The notes beneath the pieces were generated by a model. That model saw only the letters and a list, made by a program, of their open reading frames with translations, made no database searches and had not been told where the DNA came from. From IMG/VR virus record IMGVR_UViG_3300029258_002488, positions 1 through 31,683 of that record: DNA of 31,683 nucleotides; one strand, given 5' to 3'. How positions within the stretch are numbered: position 1 is the first letter of the stretch; each line of letters opens with the position of its first letter. This document shows positions 7,656-31,683 of the stretch, piece by piece. The stretch comes from a virus. Made by a program: the position numbers and the translations under genes.

Positions 7656-7958
7656 ATGGGAAAACCTAGAGACACTAAATATTATTGCAATAAATGTAAA
7701 AAACATTTTCCTGTGAGAGGGATAGTTGTTAAACAGTTGGAAACTTTTAATAAAAAAGCATTCTGTCCTAGATGTAATTCTGATGAACATACTAGCAGAT
7801 ACAATGAAGTTAAAGGTCAATCAAACAGACAAAGCACTTTAAACGACCCACCAACCAACTCCCAGTTAAACTACATCAGCTCTTTAGGTGGTACTCAGAG
7901 ACCTAAGACTAAAGCTGAAGCTGGAGCTATGATAACAAAATTAAAAAAACTAAAATGA
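7656..7958 (+). CDS. Zinc ribbon fused to DUF3072-like helical motif
   Basis: The 100-residue product has an N-terminal zinc ribbon (CNKC at about 11-14 and CPRC at about 37-40). After a polar linker comes PPTNSQLNYISSLGG, then TKAEAGAMITKLKKLK. The last part matches the short motif, often annotated near DUF3072, found at the end of many phage and bacterial proteins (P-T-x-x-Q-x-x-Y-I-x-x-L-G-G). Probable nucleic-acid binding; exact role unknown. The 24 nt across its stop and the next start are repeated exactly at the following junction. Confidence 0.65.
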   Translation: MGKPRDTKYYCNKCKKHFPVRGIVVKQLETFNKKAFCPRCNSDEHTSRYNEVKGQSNRQSTLNDPPTNSQLNYISSLGGTQRPKTKAEAGAMITKLKKLK

Positions 7959-7970
7959 GGTAATTAAATG
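7947..7970 (+). repeat. Junction repeat, copy 1
   Basis: A 24-bp segment spans the last codons and TGA of the zinc-ribbon gene, its GAGGTAA ribosome site and the next ATG. The identical 24 bp occurs at 8235-8258. Both upstream proteins therefore end in Lys-Leu-Lys. Confidence 0.9.
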
Positions 7971-8246
7971 TCTATTAAAATAGAATTATATATTTCAGAA
8001 AAAAATTTTATTAACACCATACTAAGCAACATTGAATATGCAACAGAATGTAAAGCAACAATAGATAAAGAAATCAAGAAAAAAATAATTAAAAAGGTTG
8101 AGGAAAACAAAGAGACAAATGAAATGATAATGAAATATGTAAATGATAAAGAATATATTAAACAACAAATAAATGAAATACTATACCATGACGTCATATA
8201 TTCATTAGACTTGTTGAGACAAGAAGCTAGAGATAAACTAAAATGA
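7968..8246 (+). CDS. Charged helical protein, unknown
   Basis: The 92-residue product is rich in Lys, Glu and Ile and probably all-helical, with no cysteine pairs or membrane segment. GAGGTAA sits 5 nt before the ATG. It lies between two copies of the 24-bp junction repeat, so it may have been inserted as a unit. No family is recognised. Confidence 0.55.
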   Translation: MSIKIELYISEKNFINTILSNIEYATECKATIDKEIKKKIIKKVEENKETNEMIMKYVNDKEYIKQQINEILYHDVIYSLDLLRQEARDKLK

Positions 8247-8258
8247 GGTAATTAAATG
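8235..8258 (+). repeat. Junction repeat, copy 2
   Basis: This is an exact copy of 7947-7970 and again joins a gene end, TGA, ribosome site and ATG. It flanks the 92-residue gene on its other side. Confidence 0.9.
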
Positions 8259-19831: not shown

Positions 19832-20848
19832 ATGGTAAATCCTTTTTCAAAAAGAGAAGTGGATAAAAAGAAAAAAGAATTGGAAGCTAAAGATGTTGAA
19901 TTTGTTGTTGATACATTGTTTAAAGATGATGAACCAGTAAAACAACAACCTAAAGAAATAAAGTATGAACCAGTAAAGCAACAACCTAAAGAAATAAAGT
20001 ATGAACCAGTAAAGCAACAACCTAAAGAAATAAAGTATGAACCAGTAAAGCAACAACCAGTAAAAACAGATAAAAAAAAGATACAGTCAGTCAAAGTAAT
20101 AAAAGAGACAAAAAAAATTGACTGGGACAAAGCTATCATGTGGTTGTCTGTACTGGGAATTGTTGGTATCATATTTTTATATCAGATGGTAGGAGATTTC
20201 AGTTCAGGTCTTGCTTTATTGTTATGGTTATTTGGTATGATGTGTTTCTTACCTCTAGGATTGATACTAGGATGGTTCTTTCTTGACCCTTACATGAGAT
20301 GTAAGATAATGAGAAAAACAAGACATAAGAACTATGGTATCATCTATTTTGTTCATAAGGGAGGAAAGAGGATAACTACAAGAATTAAGAATCTTGATGA
20401 TGATGTCATTATCCATGAAACTAAGTTGTGGTTGATTGATAAAAAAGGAGTATATTATTTGGATGTTAATGGCAATAAAATATTAAATGCAGAAATAGAT
20501 GATGCAAGCATAGTCACTCTTCCAAGTAATGTGCCAGCTTTGTTTTTAGACCCTGAGACCATGATTCCTTTGAGATTCCATGAAGAGAAGTCTAAGACAA
20601 ATCCTCAACAAGCTGGAGCTTTGCTGTTAGGTTACATTAACAATCAGATAACTAAGAACCTATTTTTCAAAAAGCAAATGACCATGTTCTATATTATTTT
20701 GATTTGTATCACTGGGATTACTTTTGCTCTTTCAATGCAAACATATATGGATTTTGCTGAATTGAAAGAAACCACAATACCAATGCTGGAGAACAAATTA
20801 AATTATATAGCATCCATGTTGGAAAGCATAAAATTAACACCACCATAG
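19832..20848 (+). CDS. Membrane protein with 12-residue repeats (338 aa)
   Basis: The N-terminal charged part contains three perfect copies of a 12-residue unit, EPVKQQPKEIKY, and a partial fourth (residues 34-76). A hydrophobic hairpin follows (about 103-122 and 128-155), then a soluble alpha/beta domain (about 165-280) and a further helix (about 288-308) with a coiled-coil end. The repeat region is proline- and lysine-rich and probably an extended spacer. GAGGAGATGAAAAT lies before the ATG. The soluble domain on a membrane anchor suggests a virion-assembly or host-membrane scaffold. No family is recognised. Confidence 0.65.
   Translation: MVNPFSKREVDKKKKELEAKDVEFVVDTLFKDDEPVKQQPKEIKYEPVKQQPKEIKYEPVKQQPKEIKYEPVKQQPVKTDKKKIQSVKVIKETKKIDWDKAIMWLSVLGIVGIIFLYQMVGDFSSGLALLLWLFGMMCFLPLGLILGWFFLDPYMRCKIMRKTRHKNYGIIYFVHKGGKRITTRIKNLDDDVIIHETKLWLIDKKGVYYLDVNGNKILNAEIDDASIVTLPSNVPALFLDPETMIPLRFHEEKSKTNPQQAGALLLGYINNQITKNLFFKKQMTMFYIILICITGITFALSMQTYMDFAELKETTIPMLENKLNYIASMLESIKLTPP
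19931..20058 (+). repeat. 36-bp tandem repeat, about 3.5 copies
   Basis: Units run 19931-19966, 19967-20002 and 20003-20038, with 20 nt of a fourth. They are almost identical at DNA level (one A/G difference in the first unit), so the expansion is recent. Each encodes 12 residues of the 338-residue protein. Confidence 0.95.
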
Positions 20849-23854: not shown

Positions 23855-23877
23855 AAAATAAATTGGAGGAAAAAATA

Positions 23878-24558
23878 ATGTTTAGAAAAAAAAGAACCCA
23901 TACTCATTTTGAAAGAGATAATGCTGGAGCTGTTGTTGATACTCGTAGATACAATGTAGTTGGTGGAACTAAAAAAGAACCTATCCCTGAGCTAGAACCT
24001 ATGGATGAACTTGAAGCTGATACTGATGTTAAAGCTATGGTAAAGGAATACAAACAATCAGCTAGAGAACAGGACATGATGGAGCTTGAAGCTGAAAGGT
24101 CTATGCTTGTCAAAAAAAGAGAAATGAAGCTGGAAGATTTGAAGCATAAGAAAGAAAAGAAAGAGCTGAAATCTGACATTAGAAAGATGAAGTATGCTCC
24201 TCTCTACAAAACTGGTAGTGGTCTTATGAAGATGGGAAAAGCTGTCAGAGAAAGAGATTCAGGTTTTGTTGGTGGAGGTCAAGATAAAGTTTCTTTAGAT
24301 GAAGGTGCTGTTGGAAAGAATGGTAATGAAAAAAGCGATTTCTTTTCCTTTGGTTCTAAAGGAAACATTGACTGGGGAGGTAGTAAAAAAACTGAGCTGA
24401 GTATGTCTACTGGTAAAGGCAAAGGTGCTATTGATTTTGGAGCTAAGTCTGGGGGGAAGATTGATTTCAATCTAGGTATGGGTCAAAAGTCAGCTCCTAA
24501 GAAAAAGAGAAAGAAAAAAACCAAGAAAAAGACAACTAAGAGGAGAAAAAAAACATGA
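23878..24558 (+). CDS. Highly basic protein with lysine-rich tail (226 aa)
   Basis: An N-terminal polar part is followed by a charged coiled coil (about 50-110, with EQDMMELEAERSMLVKKREM and KHKKEKKELKSDIRK). A Gly/Ser/Lys low-complexity region has repeated phrases such as IDFGAK and IDFNLG, and the tail ends in alternating Lys, Arg and Thr. Tail composition resembles that of the 1188-residue structural protein, suggesting that both touch DNA. TTGGAGG sets the ATG at 23878. It could be a genome-condensing virion protein (inference). Confidence 0.6.
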   Translation: MFRKKRTHTHFERDNAGAVVDTRRYNVVGGTKKEPIPELEPMDELEADTDVKAMVKEYKQSAREQDMMELEAERSMLVKKREMKLEDLKHKKEKKELKSDIRKMKYAPLYKTGSGLMKMGKAVRERDSGFVGGGQDKVSLDEGAVGKNGNEKSDFFSFGSKGNIDWGGSKKTELSMSTGKGKGAIDFGAKSGGKIDFNLGMGQKSAPKKKRKKKTKKKTTKRRKKT

Positions 24559-24776
24559 TATGGAAATATCATAAAAAACATAAATATTGGTATAAAAATT
24601 CACCAAAGAGTCAAGATGCATTATATCTATTATCACCAAGTCAGAATTTTAAAGAGAAGTGGTTGGTGAAAAGTACAAGATACACCAAAAAATCCCCATC
24701 AGGAAAGGGAACTTACCATGAATTTAATACAAAAAAACAAGCTCTTAATTATATAAAAAAGAGAACAAAATTATAG
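24555..24776 (+). CDS. Small basic protein (73 aa)
   Basis: The product is rich in Lys and Tyr (IWKYHKKHKYWYKNSPK) and ends in a helix (TKKQALNYIKKRTKL). ATGA overlap with the preceding gene. Probably nucleic-acid binding; no family recognised. Confidence 0.5.
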   Translation: MIWKYHKKHKYWYKNSPKSQDALYLLSPSQNFKEKWLVKSTRYTKKSPSGKGTYHEFNTKKQALNYIKKRTKL

Positions 24777-24791
24777 GAGGAAAAAGTAATG
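24775..24791 (+). repeat. Start-site repeat, copy 1 of 3
   Basis: The 17 bp AGGAGGAAAAAGTAATG, ribosome site plus start codon, recurs exactly at 24972-24988 and 25227-25243, before three consecutive genes. Confidence 0.9.
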
Positions 24792-24986
24792 ACAAGATAT
24801 ACTAAAATATTCAATCATAAAGAGTTTTTATTGGTTGGTAATTTTGCTACAAAAACATTAGCAAGAGCTGAAGCAAAAAGATTGAGAAAAGCTGGTCATA
24901 GTTCAAGAGTTACTCAAACAAAATTTGGTGGACTGACAAACAATTTTGTATGGGTTGATTATCATAGAAAGAGGAGGAAAAAGTAA
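24789..24986 (+). CDS. Small basic protein (65 aa)
   Basis: The product has strands and a basic helix (LARAEAKRLRKAGHSSRV), then WVDYHRKRRKK. The layout resembles small phage-type proteins that read a field and append a residue-rich helix, but no family is certain. Starts on copy 1 of the 17-bp start-site repeat; its stop shares one base with the next ATG. Confidence 0.5.
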   Translation: MTRYTKIFNHKEFLLVGNFATKTLARAEAKRLRKAGHSSRVTQTKFGGLTNNFVWVDYHRKRRKK

Positions 24987-27769: not shown

Positions 27770-27910
27770 ATGTCTGATAGAATAAGAAACTGCTATCTCT
27801 GTGGAAAAAAATGTTATGGAAGAGTTTGCAGAACTTGTTACACTTCAGGTACTAAAGGAAACAATGCAAACAAGCAGAGAAAAAGGAAATTAAATAAACA
27901 AAATAAGTAG
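27770..27910 (+). CDS. Mini zinc-finger protein (46 aa)
   Basis: CYLCGKKCYGRVCRTCY (residues 8-24) holds four or five cysteines in two CxxC pairs, followed by a basic lysine/arginine tail (NKQRKRKLNKQNK). The ATG follows the preceding stop directly. Probable DNA or RNA binding. Confidence 0.55.
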   Translation: MSDRIRNCYLCGKKCYGRVCRTCYTSGTKGNNANKQRKRKLNKQNK

Positions 27911-27919
27911 GTGATAAAA

Positions 27920-28027
27920 ATGGAAGATGAATTTGGAAGGTTGATATGTAACAAATGTAAGAGAGTTCTTGAATATTGTGGTGGAGATTGTTATGCTTGT
28001 CCTGTTCATGGATGGGAGTGGATGTAA
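27920..28027 (+). CDS. Mini zinc-ribbon protein (35 aa)
   Basis: The product has CNKC (10-13), C20 and CYAC-type cysteines (24-27), with a histidine at 30, so one zinc site is likely. TAGGTGAT matches the anti-Shine-Dalgarno well. Sixty bp of this gene (27924-27983) recur exactly within the chimeric gene at 28995. Its stop overlaps the next ATG by one base. Confidence 0.55.
   Translation: MEDEFGRLICNKCKRVLEYCGGDCYACPVHGWEWM
27924..27983 (+). repeat. 60-bp exact duplication, copy 1
   Basis: This segment encodes the N-terminal half of the mini zinc ribbon and is identical to 29065-29124 in the same orientation and reading frame. Absence of any difference implies a recent copy or gene conversion. 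Confidence 0.95.
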
Positions 28028-28353
28028 TGCATAAAATAAAATTCAGTCATTGGTACTATAAGCTAAAGGTATTCAATGACACTGAAGGAATCAAAAAAGC
28101 AAAGCTGTTGGAAGCAATTAAGATACATTACAATGATTTAAACCCAGAGCTAATCAAATACGACACAACTTATGGAAATGGTGCTTATCCATTACCTAAG
28201 ACAGACTTGATTCTGTTGATATTTGAGACAGTAGGAAATGTAGAAATATTTACAACAATTAGAAGATATACCCCTAACAAATGGGTATACTATAAAAAAG
28301 CTGAGGGAGAAATCTTTGAAGTGGTCATAGATGAACAAAATAGAACAGATTAA
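28027..28353 (+). CDS. Soluble protein of unknown function (108 aa)
   Basis: The product opens with a basic aromatic segment (HKIKFSHWYYKLKVFNDTEG), then a helix, then strands (DLILLIFETVGNVEIFTTIR and KWVYYKKAEGEIFEVVI). The ATG at 28027 overlaps the preceding stop (TAATG); the open frame to 27976 lies inside the zinc-ribbon gene. No family is recognised. Confidence 0.55.
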   Translation: MHKIKFSHWYYKLKVFNDTEGIKKAKLLEAIKIHYNDLNPELIKYDTTYGNGAYPLPKTDLILLIFETVGNVEIFTTIRRYTPNKWVYYKKAEGEIFEVVIDEQNRTD

Positions 28354-28441
28354 AGCATTGGAAAAAGACATAAATAATCTCATGTGGATTGTTGATATTA
28401 AAAGTCAGAAATTAGAGAAGCTGTTGGAAGATGAAAACTAA
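28331..28441 (+). CDS. Very small coiled-coil protein (36 aa)
   Basis: Heptad-like helix (KIEQIKALEKDINNLMWIVD, KSQKLEKLLEDEN) beginning inside the end of the preceding gene. Ribosome site is weak (GAAGTGGTC). It overlaps the next small frame by 11 nt. Tentative. Confidence 0.4.
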   Translation: MNKIEQIKALEKDINNLMWIVDIKSQKLEKLLEDEN

Positions 28442-28520
28442 GCAGACCACATGGGAAAATTGGTACTGGCATGATTATAATGAAAAAAAAGAGATGAAAT
28501 ATTATTATGTAGAGTTGTGA
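28431..28520 (+). CDS. Very small Trp/Tyr-rich open frame (29 aa)
   Basis: The 29-residue frame is rich in Trp and Tyr (TTWENWYWHDYNEKKEMKYY). It overlaps the preceding coiled-coil gene and ends just before the ribosome site of the next gene. Aromatic content is unusual, but the evidence for translation is thin. Confidence 0.3.
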   Translation: MKTKQTTWENWYWHDYNEKKEMKYYYVEL

Positions 28521-28524
28521 TATA

Positions 28525-28992
28525 ATGAAAACAAAAAAAATGTTTGAGGAAGCACTAAGGCAATTATTAACATTTTATGACAATTACAGATTTGTTATGA
28601 AAATGACTGAACAAGAATCAAAAGATAAGACAATGGAAGTCTATTATGATTTCTATGAATGGCTAAATGAAGGGGGTAAAGAGCAAGCTGAGAGCAAAAA
28701 GACCCTAGTTGCCAATAAAGATGTTGCTAGTATTCCTGTGGAGAATACTGTTACGAAAAAAGAACCTGAAAAGAAATCGAACTATAAAGGAAAAAGAAGC
28801 AAATTTGAAATGTGGTTTAAAGAGCTGGAGATAGGAACTAAATTTACTATAGAAGATTTCTTTAAAGACAATCCAAAATTTAAACCAGACATCAGAGGAA
28901 AAGAAAGATTAACAAAATACATATCAAAACTGATAAGTGAAAGAAAACTATTACAGCATTCATCTGAAAGATTTGAGAAGATAGGTGGTTGA
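28525..28992 (+). CDS. Two-domain protein with C-terminal winged-helix-like region (155 aa)
   Basis: A helical N-terminal domain (about 1-55) is joined by a disordered lysine/proline linker to a C-terminal domain (about 92-155). The latter contains KFEMWFKELEIGTKFTIEDF and ERLTKYISKLISERKLLQHS, resembling a winged helix. GTTGTGATATA precedes the ATG. Probably a DNA-binding regulator. Confidence 0.55.
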   Translation: MKTKKMFEEALRQLLTFYDNYRFVMKMTEQESKDKTMEVYYDFYEWLNEGGKEQAESKKTLVANKDVASIPVENTVTKKEPEKKSNYKGKRSKFEMWFKELEIGTKFTIEDFFKDNPKFKPDIRGKERLTKYISKLISERKLLQHSSERFEKIGG

Positions 28993-28994
28993 AA

Positions 28995-29159
28995 ATGAAA
29001 ATATTATATCTTGGAGACCATGATGCATCAGGACTTGATATGATTAGAGATGTTACTGACAGACAAGATGAATTTGGAAGGTTGATATGTAACAAATGTA
29101 AGAGAGTTCTTGAATATTGTGGTGTTGAATGGCGTTGTCCTGAACACTTGGAGGGATAA
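28995..29159 (+). CDS. Chimeric ORF: Toprim-like fragment joined to zinc ribbon
   Basis: Residues 1-24 (MKILYLGDHDASGLDMIRDV, then TDRQ) match the start of Toprim-like domains of the topoisomerase VI A/Spo11 type, with the acidic DHD-SGLD motif. Residues 25-54 are a zinc ribbon (CNKC, C42, CPEH), whose first 20 residues come from the 60-bp duplication. A real Toprim domain needs over 100 residues, so this is a truncated gene fused to a copied ribbon. It starts 2 nt after the preceding stop and ends in GGGATAA, a junction used by several following genes. It may now act only as a zinc protein, or be a decaying gene. Confidence 0.55.
   Translation: MKILYLGDHDASGLDMIRDVTDRQDEFGRLICNKCKRVLEYCGVEWRCPEHLEG
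29065..29124 (+). repeat. 60-bp exact duplication, copy 2
   Basis: Identical to 27924-27983. Here it is the 5' half of the zinc-ribbon part in the chimeric gene, and its left edge coincides with the point where Toprim similarity stops. Confidence 0.95.
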
Positions 29160-29160
29160 G

Positions 29161-29232
29161 ATGGTGCAATTTCATGGTGATTATATTTGGGTTTATGAAC
29201 ATACAAAATCAAGAACAAATGAGAAGATGTAA
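29161..29232 (+). CDS. Tiny open frame (23 aa), doubtful
   Basis: Begins 1 nt after the chimeric gene behind GAGGGATAAG and encodes MVQFHGDYIWVYEHTKSRTN plus a short end. An overlapping frame (29195-29263, 22 aa) ends with the GAGGGATAA that serves the next gene. At most one is likely to be real; both may be remnants. Confidence 0.25.
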   Translation: MVQFHGDYIWVYEHTKSRTNEKM

Positions 29233-29269
29233 AGAGAAAATAAGAGAAATACAAGAGGGATAAGATAAC

Positions 29270-29464
29270 ATGAGTTGGATTGATTTAAAAGCAAAAATAA
29301 AATGGTTACATCAAACAAAGAATTACAAAAATGTTAATTTTCATAAGTTTAAACTTTGGGATGCTACAAATCAATGTTGGTATACTTATTGGTATCTTGA
29401 TAAAATTGATATTGAAAGACTTACAAAACCAAGTAAATTGGAAAAACGATTGTATAATTTATGA
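29270..29464 (+). CDS. Small Trp/Lys-rich protein (64 aa)
   Basis: The product (KAKIKWLHQTKNYKNVNFHK, CWYTYWYLDKIDIERLTKPS) is basic and aromatic, mixed alpha/beta. GAGGGATAAGATAAC precedes the ATG. Function unknown. Confidence 0.5.
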   Translation: MSWIDLKAKIKWLHQTKNYKNVNFHKFKLWDATNQCWYTYWYLDKIDIERLTKPSKLEKRLYNL

Positions 29465-29477
29465 GGGATAGAAAGAC

Positions 29478-29678
29478 ATGGTAAAAGATATTGATAAGGA
29501 AGTATTGAAATATTTAAAAAGAAAAACTGAAGGTGCTATTCTTCAGAATATGATTGATGATTTACATTATCATAGGTTCACTATTCAAAAAGCATTGTAT
29601 CGTTTGATGCTAAAAGATTTGATTATTGAAAGAATTTACAGTCAAAATGTAAAAGTATATTGGTTCAAGAAGGGATAA
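29478..29678 (+). CDS. Small winged-helix protein (66 aa)
   Basis: The whole product is one winged-helix domain: helix 1 (DIDKEVLKYLKRK), helix 2 (AILQNMIDDLHY), recognition helix (TIQKALYRLMLKDLI), then a wing (IYSQNVKVYWFKKG). GAGGGATAG lies upstream. Likely a transcription regulator. Its end is the GGGATAA junction for the next frame. Confidence 0.65.
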   Translation: MVKDIDKEVLKYLKRKTEGAILQNMIDDLHYHRFTIQKALYRLMLKDLIIERIYSQNVKVYWFKKG

Positions 29679-29684
29679 CTTAAC

Positions 29685-29762
29685 ATGGTAAAAGTTGATT
29701 ACATATCTATGAAAAAAAGAAAGGGGGTGAAAAAAGAAAATGCCTTACAAAGTATATTTTAG
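29685..29762 (+). CDS. Tiny open frame (25 aa), possible leader peptide
   Basis: Starts behind GAAGGGATAACTTAAC and overlaps the next gene by 23 nt. Its body contains the strong GGGGGTGA ribosome site of that gene, so translating it could control access to the site. No domain is visible. Confidence 0.3.
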   Translation: MVKVDYISMKKRKGVKKENALQSIF

Positions 29763-29937
29763 AAAAAAGGGAAACAAAAAATGGCAAACAAACAAGTCAT
29801 TATATTTATCTAAAGAAAAAGCAAGACGAGGACTTAAAGCGTTACGTGAAAAGAAAACACATAATACAAGAATTGGATATGTTTCTCCAGAGTTTAAAAA
29901 CACAAAGAAAGGATATGGACATTATTATCTAAGGTAG
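29740..29937 (+). CDS. Small basic protein (65 aa)
   Basis: YKVYFRKKGNKKWQTNKSLY then SKEKARRGLKALREKKTHNT and a beta end; very basic. AAAGGGGGTGAAAAAAG is one of the strongest ribosome sites in the window. It contains CGA and CGT arginine codons that are rare elsewhere in this genome. Probably nucleic-acid binding. Confidence 0.55.
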   Translation: MPYKVYFRKKGNKKWQTNKSLYLSKEKARRGLKALREKKTHNTRIGYVSPEFKNTKKGYGHYYLR

Positions 29938-29945
29938 TTGAATAT

Positions 29946-30071
29946 ATGAACCCTTGCGATTATGTGATTTGCGATGTCACAAACTATATATTAGTGTTAT
30001 TACCCTTTTGTGGTATTATGATGTTAATAGTGTATTGGGATAATATTAAAAGATTCTTTAAGAAGGGATAA
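29946..30071 (+). CDS. Very small membrane protein (41 aa)
   Basis: A single hydrophobic helix (about 14-31, YILVLLPFCGIMMLIVYW) with a short extracellular-type N-terminus holding two cysteines and a basic end (KRFFKKG). No strong ribosome site upstream. Its end AAGGGATAA serves the next gene. Confidence 0.45.
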   Translation: MNPCDYVICDVTNYILVLLPFCGIMMLIVYWDNIKRFFKKG

Positions 30072-30074
30072 AAT

Positions 30075-30206
30075 ATGATGTTTTGTCCGATATGTGGTAA
30101 ATTTCCAGTAGTGAAATCAACAGGTTTTTGTTATCATCATCATAATAGATATATTAAAGATGTCAGGAGATTTAAGAAAGATTGGATTGTACAACAGAAG
30201 GGATAA
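30075..30206 (+). CDS. Mini zinc-finger protein (43 aa)
   Basis: CPIC (residues 4-7) and CYHHH (19-23) suggest one zinc site, followed by a basic helix (NRYIKDVRRFKKDWIVQQKG). The ribosome site AAGGGATAA is the end of the preceding gene, and the same pattern at its own end serves the next. Confidence 0.5.
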   Translation: MMFCPICGKFPVVKSTGFCYHHHNRYIKDVRRFKKDWIVQQKG

Positions 30207-30208
30207 GA

Positions 30209-30331
30209 ATGAATGATAAAGAGTACATGGCTTATGAGATTTGGAAGGCAATTCATTATACGCATCCACAGAAGTTGGAATCTGAGTTTGGTTTTACAAG
30301 TAAGACTAAATTCAAAATTATAGAGAAATAA
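30209..30331 (+). CDS. Very small helical protein (40 aa)
   Basis: The product (NDKEYMAYEIWKAIHYTHPQ, then KLESEFGFTSKTKFKIIEK) reads like a short helical domain. AAGGGATAAGA precedes the ATG. It is the last gene before the AT-rich gap. Confidence 0.45.
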   Translation: MNDKEYMAYEIWKAIHYTHPQKLESEFGFTSKTKFKIIEK

Positions 30332-30549
30332 AACAACATGATAATAAACTCTGAGGTCAAGAATTAATATTTAACTTTTACTGTAATTTTTATAGAAATC
30401 TATGTTTTTCATGCATTTATAATAAAACTACATTTTTGAAAAAACAATAAACATTAAAAGCTATTTTTCCATTCTCTTTTTTTACCCAGAAATTATTAGA
30501 GTGTTAATCTTTGTCGTTGACATAGAGGTTGACATAGAGGTGGTTGAGG
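30332..30549. other. AT-rich intergenic region, candidate replication origin
   Basis: No gene is visible in these 218 bp. The stretch is extremely AT-rich, with ATTTATAATAAAAC (about 30415-30428) matching the shared promoter element. A pyrimidine tract (CCATTCTCTTTTTTTACCC, about 30469-30487) follows, then two tandem 12-bp repeats just before the HTH gene. AT-richness, direct repeats and an adjacent HTH protein together fit an origin; this is inference. Confidence 0.4.
30516..30539 (+). repeat. Tandem 12-bp direct repeat upstream of the HTH gene
   Basis: GTTGACATAGAG occurs twice in a row, 30516-30527 and 30528-30539, ending 10 nt before the ATG. The first copy is preceded by TGTC, giving the palindrome TGTC-GT-TGACA... 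The reverse complement of its core, GTCAAC, recurs at several points in the coding region. Confidence 0.85.
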
Positions 30550-31539: not shown

Positions 31540-31683
31540 ATTATAGTTTTGCTCCTATATTAAATTTTATGTATAATATTTAAAAAACTATTTAAAGATA
31601 ATTTTGTATATCATTTTGATACAAATGTTGGATAAGGAAGGAAAACCAGCAAGAATTATCTTTAGACCTACTATTTCTTTAGA
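31540..31683. repeat. Terminal direct repeat, right copy
   Basis: Identical to positions 1-144. It includes a truncated second copy of the ribbon-helix-helix gene start (31625-31683), which is not a separate gene but the same locus seen twice. Confidence 0.95.

Follow-up and report, generated by a model that had tools for sequence, protein, structure and literature searches.

The open reading frame (ORF) at positions 28995..29159 (+ strand) of the window, which is the whole 31,683-base virus record IMGVR_UViG_3300029258_002488, starts with ATG and encodes 54 amino acids, MKILYLGDHDASGLDMIRDVTDRQDEFGRLICNKCKRVLEYCGVEWRCPEHLEG. It is most likely a true, recent, patchwork gene made by short-homology joining. 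The origin that we favor, with moderate confidence, is a recent microhomology chimera of a Toprim piece and the zinc ribbon of a second small gene (gene A), formed within a hypervariable small-gene region. Some 70-80 bp from the middle of a phage or archaeal-virus Toprim gene of the topoisomerase VI A/Spo11 type would have become linked to a duplicate of gene A, which starts at 27920. Short-homology illegitimate recombination would have placed the crossover at an in-frame (D)EFG-coding stretch of both genes, roughly GATGAATTTGG. When the whole fusion was sought in viral contigs and phages, no relative was found to carry the same joined ORF, and among 371 genomes from the phylum to which the archaeal MAG with the closest Toprim gene belongs, that MAG alone was matched, with a full gene.

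The two ends of the window are identical over 144 bp (1-144 = 31540-31683), so the record probably represents an entire genome, either circular or with terminal repeats. The close relative IMGVR_UViG_3300023256_000001 (G001) and the more distant relative IMGVR_UViG_3300030616_000009 (G002) were used for comparison. The ATPase of G001 is 96% identical to that of the window; the flanking DNA and genes are about 20-25% different. The ATPase of the window virus is Zot-like, and a profile search detected distant homologues (L126-L130) in five of 371 small genomes from the same archaeal phylum, which hints at an archaeal host range. An ATPase pattern scan across genome contigs, aimed at the host, gave no match.

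The Toprim piece, the 60-bp repeat and their overlap

The Toprim-derived piece spans 29001..29078 (+ strand), residues I3-G28, and corresponds to a strand, the GDxD loop and a helix of the topoisomerase VI A/Spo11 Toprim domain. Residues 2-29 of the ORF align with positions 172-199 of the 303-position profile phrog_6247 ('DNA topoisomerase') with a library-corrected E of 1.7e-6. A tblastn search of the ORF against phages returned 63 records with identities of up to about 71%, and the matches listed are confined to the first 30 residues, a few weak ones aside. A degenerate DNA pattern, in which Pro or Ala was allowed at the DPSG site, identified 21 viral stretches, and a second pattern identified two genome contigs. 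The relatives found in this way are mostly full-length proteins of roughly 240-370 amino acids, with a few clipped by contig ends. A comparison set of 23 Toprim relatives (full-length, some cut by contig ends) was read codon by codon.

The closest full-length gene lies on the archaeal MAG contig JAUXAD010000008.1 (L124/L125) and is 85% identical over residues 3-28. The best donor at the DNA level is this archaeal MAG gene, with 66 of 87 nt matching; no Toprim donor with identical DNA was found, and we therefore infer the parental Toprim sequence at the joint. A DNA-level search of 27890-29260 against phages and plasmids gave short chance-type matches only. The match of PF21180 to L124 has an E of 0.0029, below the PF21180 cut-off. 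An AlphaFold model of another full-length relative (L104) has a pLDDT of 85 and matches topoisomerase VI A (9o0g_A) with a Z of 9.8 and an rmsd of 3.0 over 142 aligned residues. Further matches of the model are JetD and the C. glutamicum nuclease 8b7f (Z of 9.3) and Spo11 (Z of 7.7). The Toprim family fold is confirmed in the predicted structure of this relative. The single-sequence model of the chimeric ORF (pLDDT 77; five models spanning 51-77) was rejected as uninformative.

The second component is a direct repeat of 60 bp. Copy A (27924..27983, + strand) comprises codons 2-21 of gene A, and copy B (29065..29124, + strand) lies within the chimeric ORF. The copies are identical at 60 of 60 positions; the identity extends 0 bases further leftward, and a mismatch appears straight after base 60. 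The longest exact repeats in 20 first-order Markov surrogates of the window are only 15-19 bp, and the 60-bp repeat is thus far beyond chance. A third copy was sought in the window and not found. Gene A (27920..28027, + strand) encodes 35 amino acids, MEDEFGRLICNKCKRVLEYCGGDCYACPVHGWEWM, and starts with M-E-D-E-F-G. The predicted zinc knuckles are CNKC ... CPEH in copy B and CNKC ... CYAC/CPVH in gene A.

The tail of copy B (29125..29159, + strand) is unlike that of copy A. Beyond the repeat the two tails share C-P-x-H only, and homology outside this motif was not significant in shuffle tests (277/5000 for DNA; 8365/20000 for protein). Since the tails diverge after the repeat, B is no simple copy of A, and a second crossover or a conversion end is required. 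Curated zinc-ribbon families (Pfam/NCBIfam) gave sub-threshold matches only, with E values of 0.067-0.27. Zinc-ribbon homologues were sought in phages, G001 and G002, and with degenerate patterns in viral contigs, and none were found.

The Toprim and repeat segments overlap by 14 nt at 29065..29078 (+ strand), AAGATGAATTTGGA, a probable short-homology crossover. The corresponding sequence of L124 is GAAGAATTTGGA, in which the codons GAA GAA TTT GGA match EEFG, and Toprim relatives often carry ...DRLEEFG... at this site. The EFG codons of the Toprim genes and the DEFG start of gene A thus provide an in-frame stretch common to both parents, and the crossover would fall within 29065-29078. At the DNA level the candidate parent on the gene A side is exact over 60 bp, and the Toprim side matches at the 66 of 87 nt given above. 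Similarity to both parents that overlaps at the joint looks like the signature of a short-homology crossover.

The original prediction, that the ORF begins with a topoisomerase VI A/Spo11-type Toprim segment and contains an exact copy of 27924-27983, is borne out on both points by the phrog_6247 match together with the fold of the full-length relative and by the 60/60 identity. It had also limited the Toprim similarity to the first 24 residues, ending exactly where the repeat begins. The placement at the start of the ORF stands; the boundary does not. Relative to the 23 homologues, the similarity begins at I3 (29001) and ends with G28 (29078), 14 nt into the repeat, and R29 onward is unmatched. 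Termination at the repeat border was rejected because E26, F27 and G28 (29070-29078), which lie inside the repeat, match 16/23, 18/23 and 12/23 relatives, respectively. Extension of the match upstream (28971-29000) was also rejected: none of the 23 relatives shows homology before I3, and the DNA is that of the upstream gene.

The piece comprises one strand (L104 residues 170-176), the GDxD loop and one helix (L104 residues 184-196). The metal-binding loop GDxDPSG reads GDHDASG, with both Asp residues retained and Pro replaced by Ala. Pro occupies the DPSG site in 23/23 relatives, found with patterns that permit either residue, and the substitution suggests relaxed constraint on the sequence. 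The first Toprim strand normally bears the catalytic Glu, in a region (VEK[DE]AL) that is invariant in alignments A3 and A4 and reads VEKDAL at residue 123 of L104. This region was sought in the chimeric ORF and in the rest of the genome and is absent. The fragment begins near profile position 172 of 303, and nothing upstream matches the N-terminal winged-helix/Tyr (5Y-CAP) domain. With neither the catalytic Glu nor the N-terminal domain that bears the Tyr present in the genome, the ORF cannot be a Toprim enzyme, and the piece is catalytically dead. With CNKC and CPEH kept, the sole plausible activity is that predicted for a zinc ribbon; any activity of the product would be exerted through the ribbon, to which the Toprim strand and helix would form an odd leader.

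Left joint, synteny and age

The conserved gene upstream (28525..28992, + strand) encodes 155 amino acids and is 63% identical to its G001 counterpart over residues 48-154. Its last codons contain the ribosome-binding motif of the chimeric ORF, agGTGg. A second joint lies here: DNA homology to G001 is last seen at 28987, and the Toprim match sets in at 29001. The AGGTG is kept before the next start codon in both genomes (aggtggttgaaaATG in the window and aggtgaataATG in G001), and the chimeric ORF thus has a plausible ribosome-binding site. Joining just past this motif would have supplied a plausible start, so that the ORF may be translatable. With the frame open and the motif present, it is possible that the virus builds new small genes from modules.

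The chimeric ORF heads a block of small genes (28988..30540, + strand; end approximate), in place of which G001 has about 290 unrelated bases. The block of gene A and a 108-aa gene (27886..28324, + strand) is absent at the syntenic place of G001. Both copies of the repeat were sought at the syntenic places of G001, and neither is present. Judged from these alignments, the locus is a hypervariable, fast-turnover small-gene region that is unlike even between close relatives.

Several other features of the genomes were recorded. The 108-aa gene beside gene A (window 28027-28353) has a 37-42% identical homologue elsewhere in G001 (L003 6467-6778). Two neighboring homologous blocks (window 23861-24796 vs L007 7784-8961) appear in swapped order in G001, a sign of local shuffling. 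In the same small-gene region, G001 carries a 213-aa gene (L007 12982-13623) in which a zinc ribbon precedes a putative endonuclease of the homing type; it matches phrog_5046 ('HNH endonuclease') with an E of 2e-8, and its sequence reads more LAGLIDADG-like. A short ribbon-helix-helix-like ORF occupies the corresponding place in the window. An exact 24-bp repeat of the window (7947-7970 and 8235-8258) runs from the end of one gene across a ribosome-binding site to the start of the next (AAACTAAAATGAGGTAATTAAATG) and is possibly another duplicated gene-start cassette. A tandem 36-bp repeat with the 12-residue unit EPVKQQPKEIKY is located at 19929-20058 in a 338-aa ORF.

The 0 differences over 60 bp give a 95% upper bound on divergence of about 4.9%, against about 20-25% between the window and G001. 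The repeat is therefore younger than the split of the window from G001, or conversion keeps the copies alike. The description of the joint as a fresh recombination scar agrees with the identity of the copies, the divergence of the flanks and the lack of either copy in G001.

Alternative origins

The original prediction had offered, as a second possibility, that a former Toprim gene was lost at this position, and this is not supported. No Toprim match was found in G001, and no further Toprim piece was found in the window genome. The Toprim gene of G002 is full-length (295 amino acids), adjoins the ATPase rather than occupying the place of the chimeric ORF, and belongs to a different sub-type (46% over 26 residues). 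A related but more elaborate account, which we regard as unlikely, is that a full Toprim gene was acquired together with its own zinc-ribbon gene, that a deletion occurred via the EFG stretch, and that the ribbon was later converted to the 60 bp of gene A. The arrangement has parallels: the Toprim gene of G002 is directly followed by a 63-aa CxxC gene, and a small CxxC gene lies just downstream in 15/107 surveyed Toprim loci vs about 2% of small ORFs generally, figures that are indicative only, since redundant loci are included and the background ORFs are unfiltered. A viral Toprim protein (L103, 6246-7265) carries a zinc-ribbon-like C-terminal tail (CVNC...CGNEC); by its sequence it is a naturally occurring fusion of Toprim and ribbon, different in kind from the chimeric ORF. 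The tail of copy B also retains a C-P-x-H of its own. However, gene conversion is an extra event, the Toprim gene has lost its N-terminal half as well, which requires two deletions or a truncated acquisition, and neither G001 nor G002 has a syntenic full Toprim gene.

The copying may instead have run in the reverse direction, with fusion B formed first and gene A copied from it, so that the MEDEFG start of gene A would be a Toprim scar. This would explain a Toprim-like DEFG at the start of a zinc-ribbon gene with no coincidence. G001 lacks gene A, and a search of 2.9 million viral contigs yielded no other ribbon that starts with DE[FY]GRL.C..C, although this is a narrow pattern. Illegitimate crossovers fall at short homology, however, and transfer from A to B needs no coincidence either. 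We consider the reverse order quite improbable and retain, tentatively, the copying of gene A into the chimeric ORF. A broader scenario, in which the lineage repeatedly copies a ribbon cassette behind captured gene starts and the ORF records one moment of de novo gene birth within a virus of archaeal type, is held to be very doubtful.

Misassembly, or a mixture of strains in the metagenome, has little probability. Repeats are typical sites of assembly error, but a normal read exceeds 60 bp, two direct copies leave a single linear path that uses all flanks, both genes are open across the repeat, and the 144-bp identical ends are such as a finished circular or terminally repeated genome would show. 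A functional fusion kept for its Toprim strand and helix, which might serve in binding or as a decoy, is hardly credible: the motif (GDHD.SGLDMIRD) has largely survived in an open frame, but the piece cannot bind metal in the Toprim manner with the catalytic Glu and the remaining fold missing, the invariant Pro is altered, no relative shares the fusion, and a recent origin accounts equally well for the conservation.

Comparison with known systems

The short-homology chimera is a case of small scale and good resolution: its sequence reveals the two joints, the likely crossover site with its letters, and a maximum age. It illustrates the origin of small viral ORFs whose partial homology ('topoisomerase') misleads, and the chimeric ORF should not be annotated as a topoisomerase.

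The phage topoisomerase VI A/Spo11-type Toprim proteins of phrog_6247 (about 300 amino acids) are homologous to residues 3-28 of the ORF and share the GDxD..G.DM.RD signature. The ORF, in contrast, covers about 9% of the protein, lacks the catalytic Glu, the N-terminal winged-helix/Tyr domain and the C-terminal part, and has Ala at the invariant Pro. Small viral zinc ribbons and the zinc-finger micro-proteins of the HVO_0758 type (PF23137, NF041912) are likewise short CxxC...CPxH proteins, although the matches to these families fall below threshold, in the E range reported above.

In the domain mosaicism of phage proteins (Smug et al. 2023, PMC10684548), a recently shuffled fragment is likewise common to otherwise unrelated proteins. 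Here, however, the Toprim piece is sub-domain-sized and non-functional, resides in a 54-aa ORF, and is found in a virus with kinship to archaeal elements. Homology-facilitated illegitimate recombination (PMC3240628), which pairs homology at one end with an illegitimate join at the other, would yield a structure of this kind, although for the ORF the mechanism is deduced from the joint only. No new system is involved, and the chimeric ORF exemplifies phage mosaicism of the known type (PMC10684548) together with illegitimate joining (PMC3240628).
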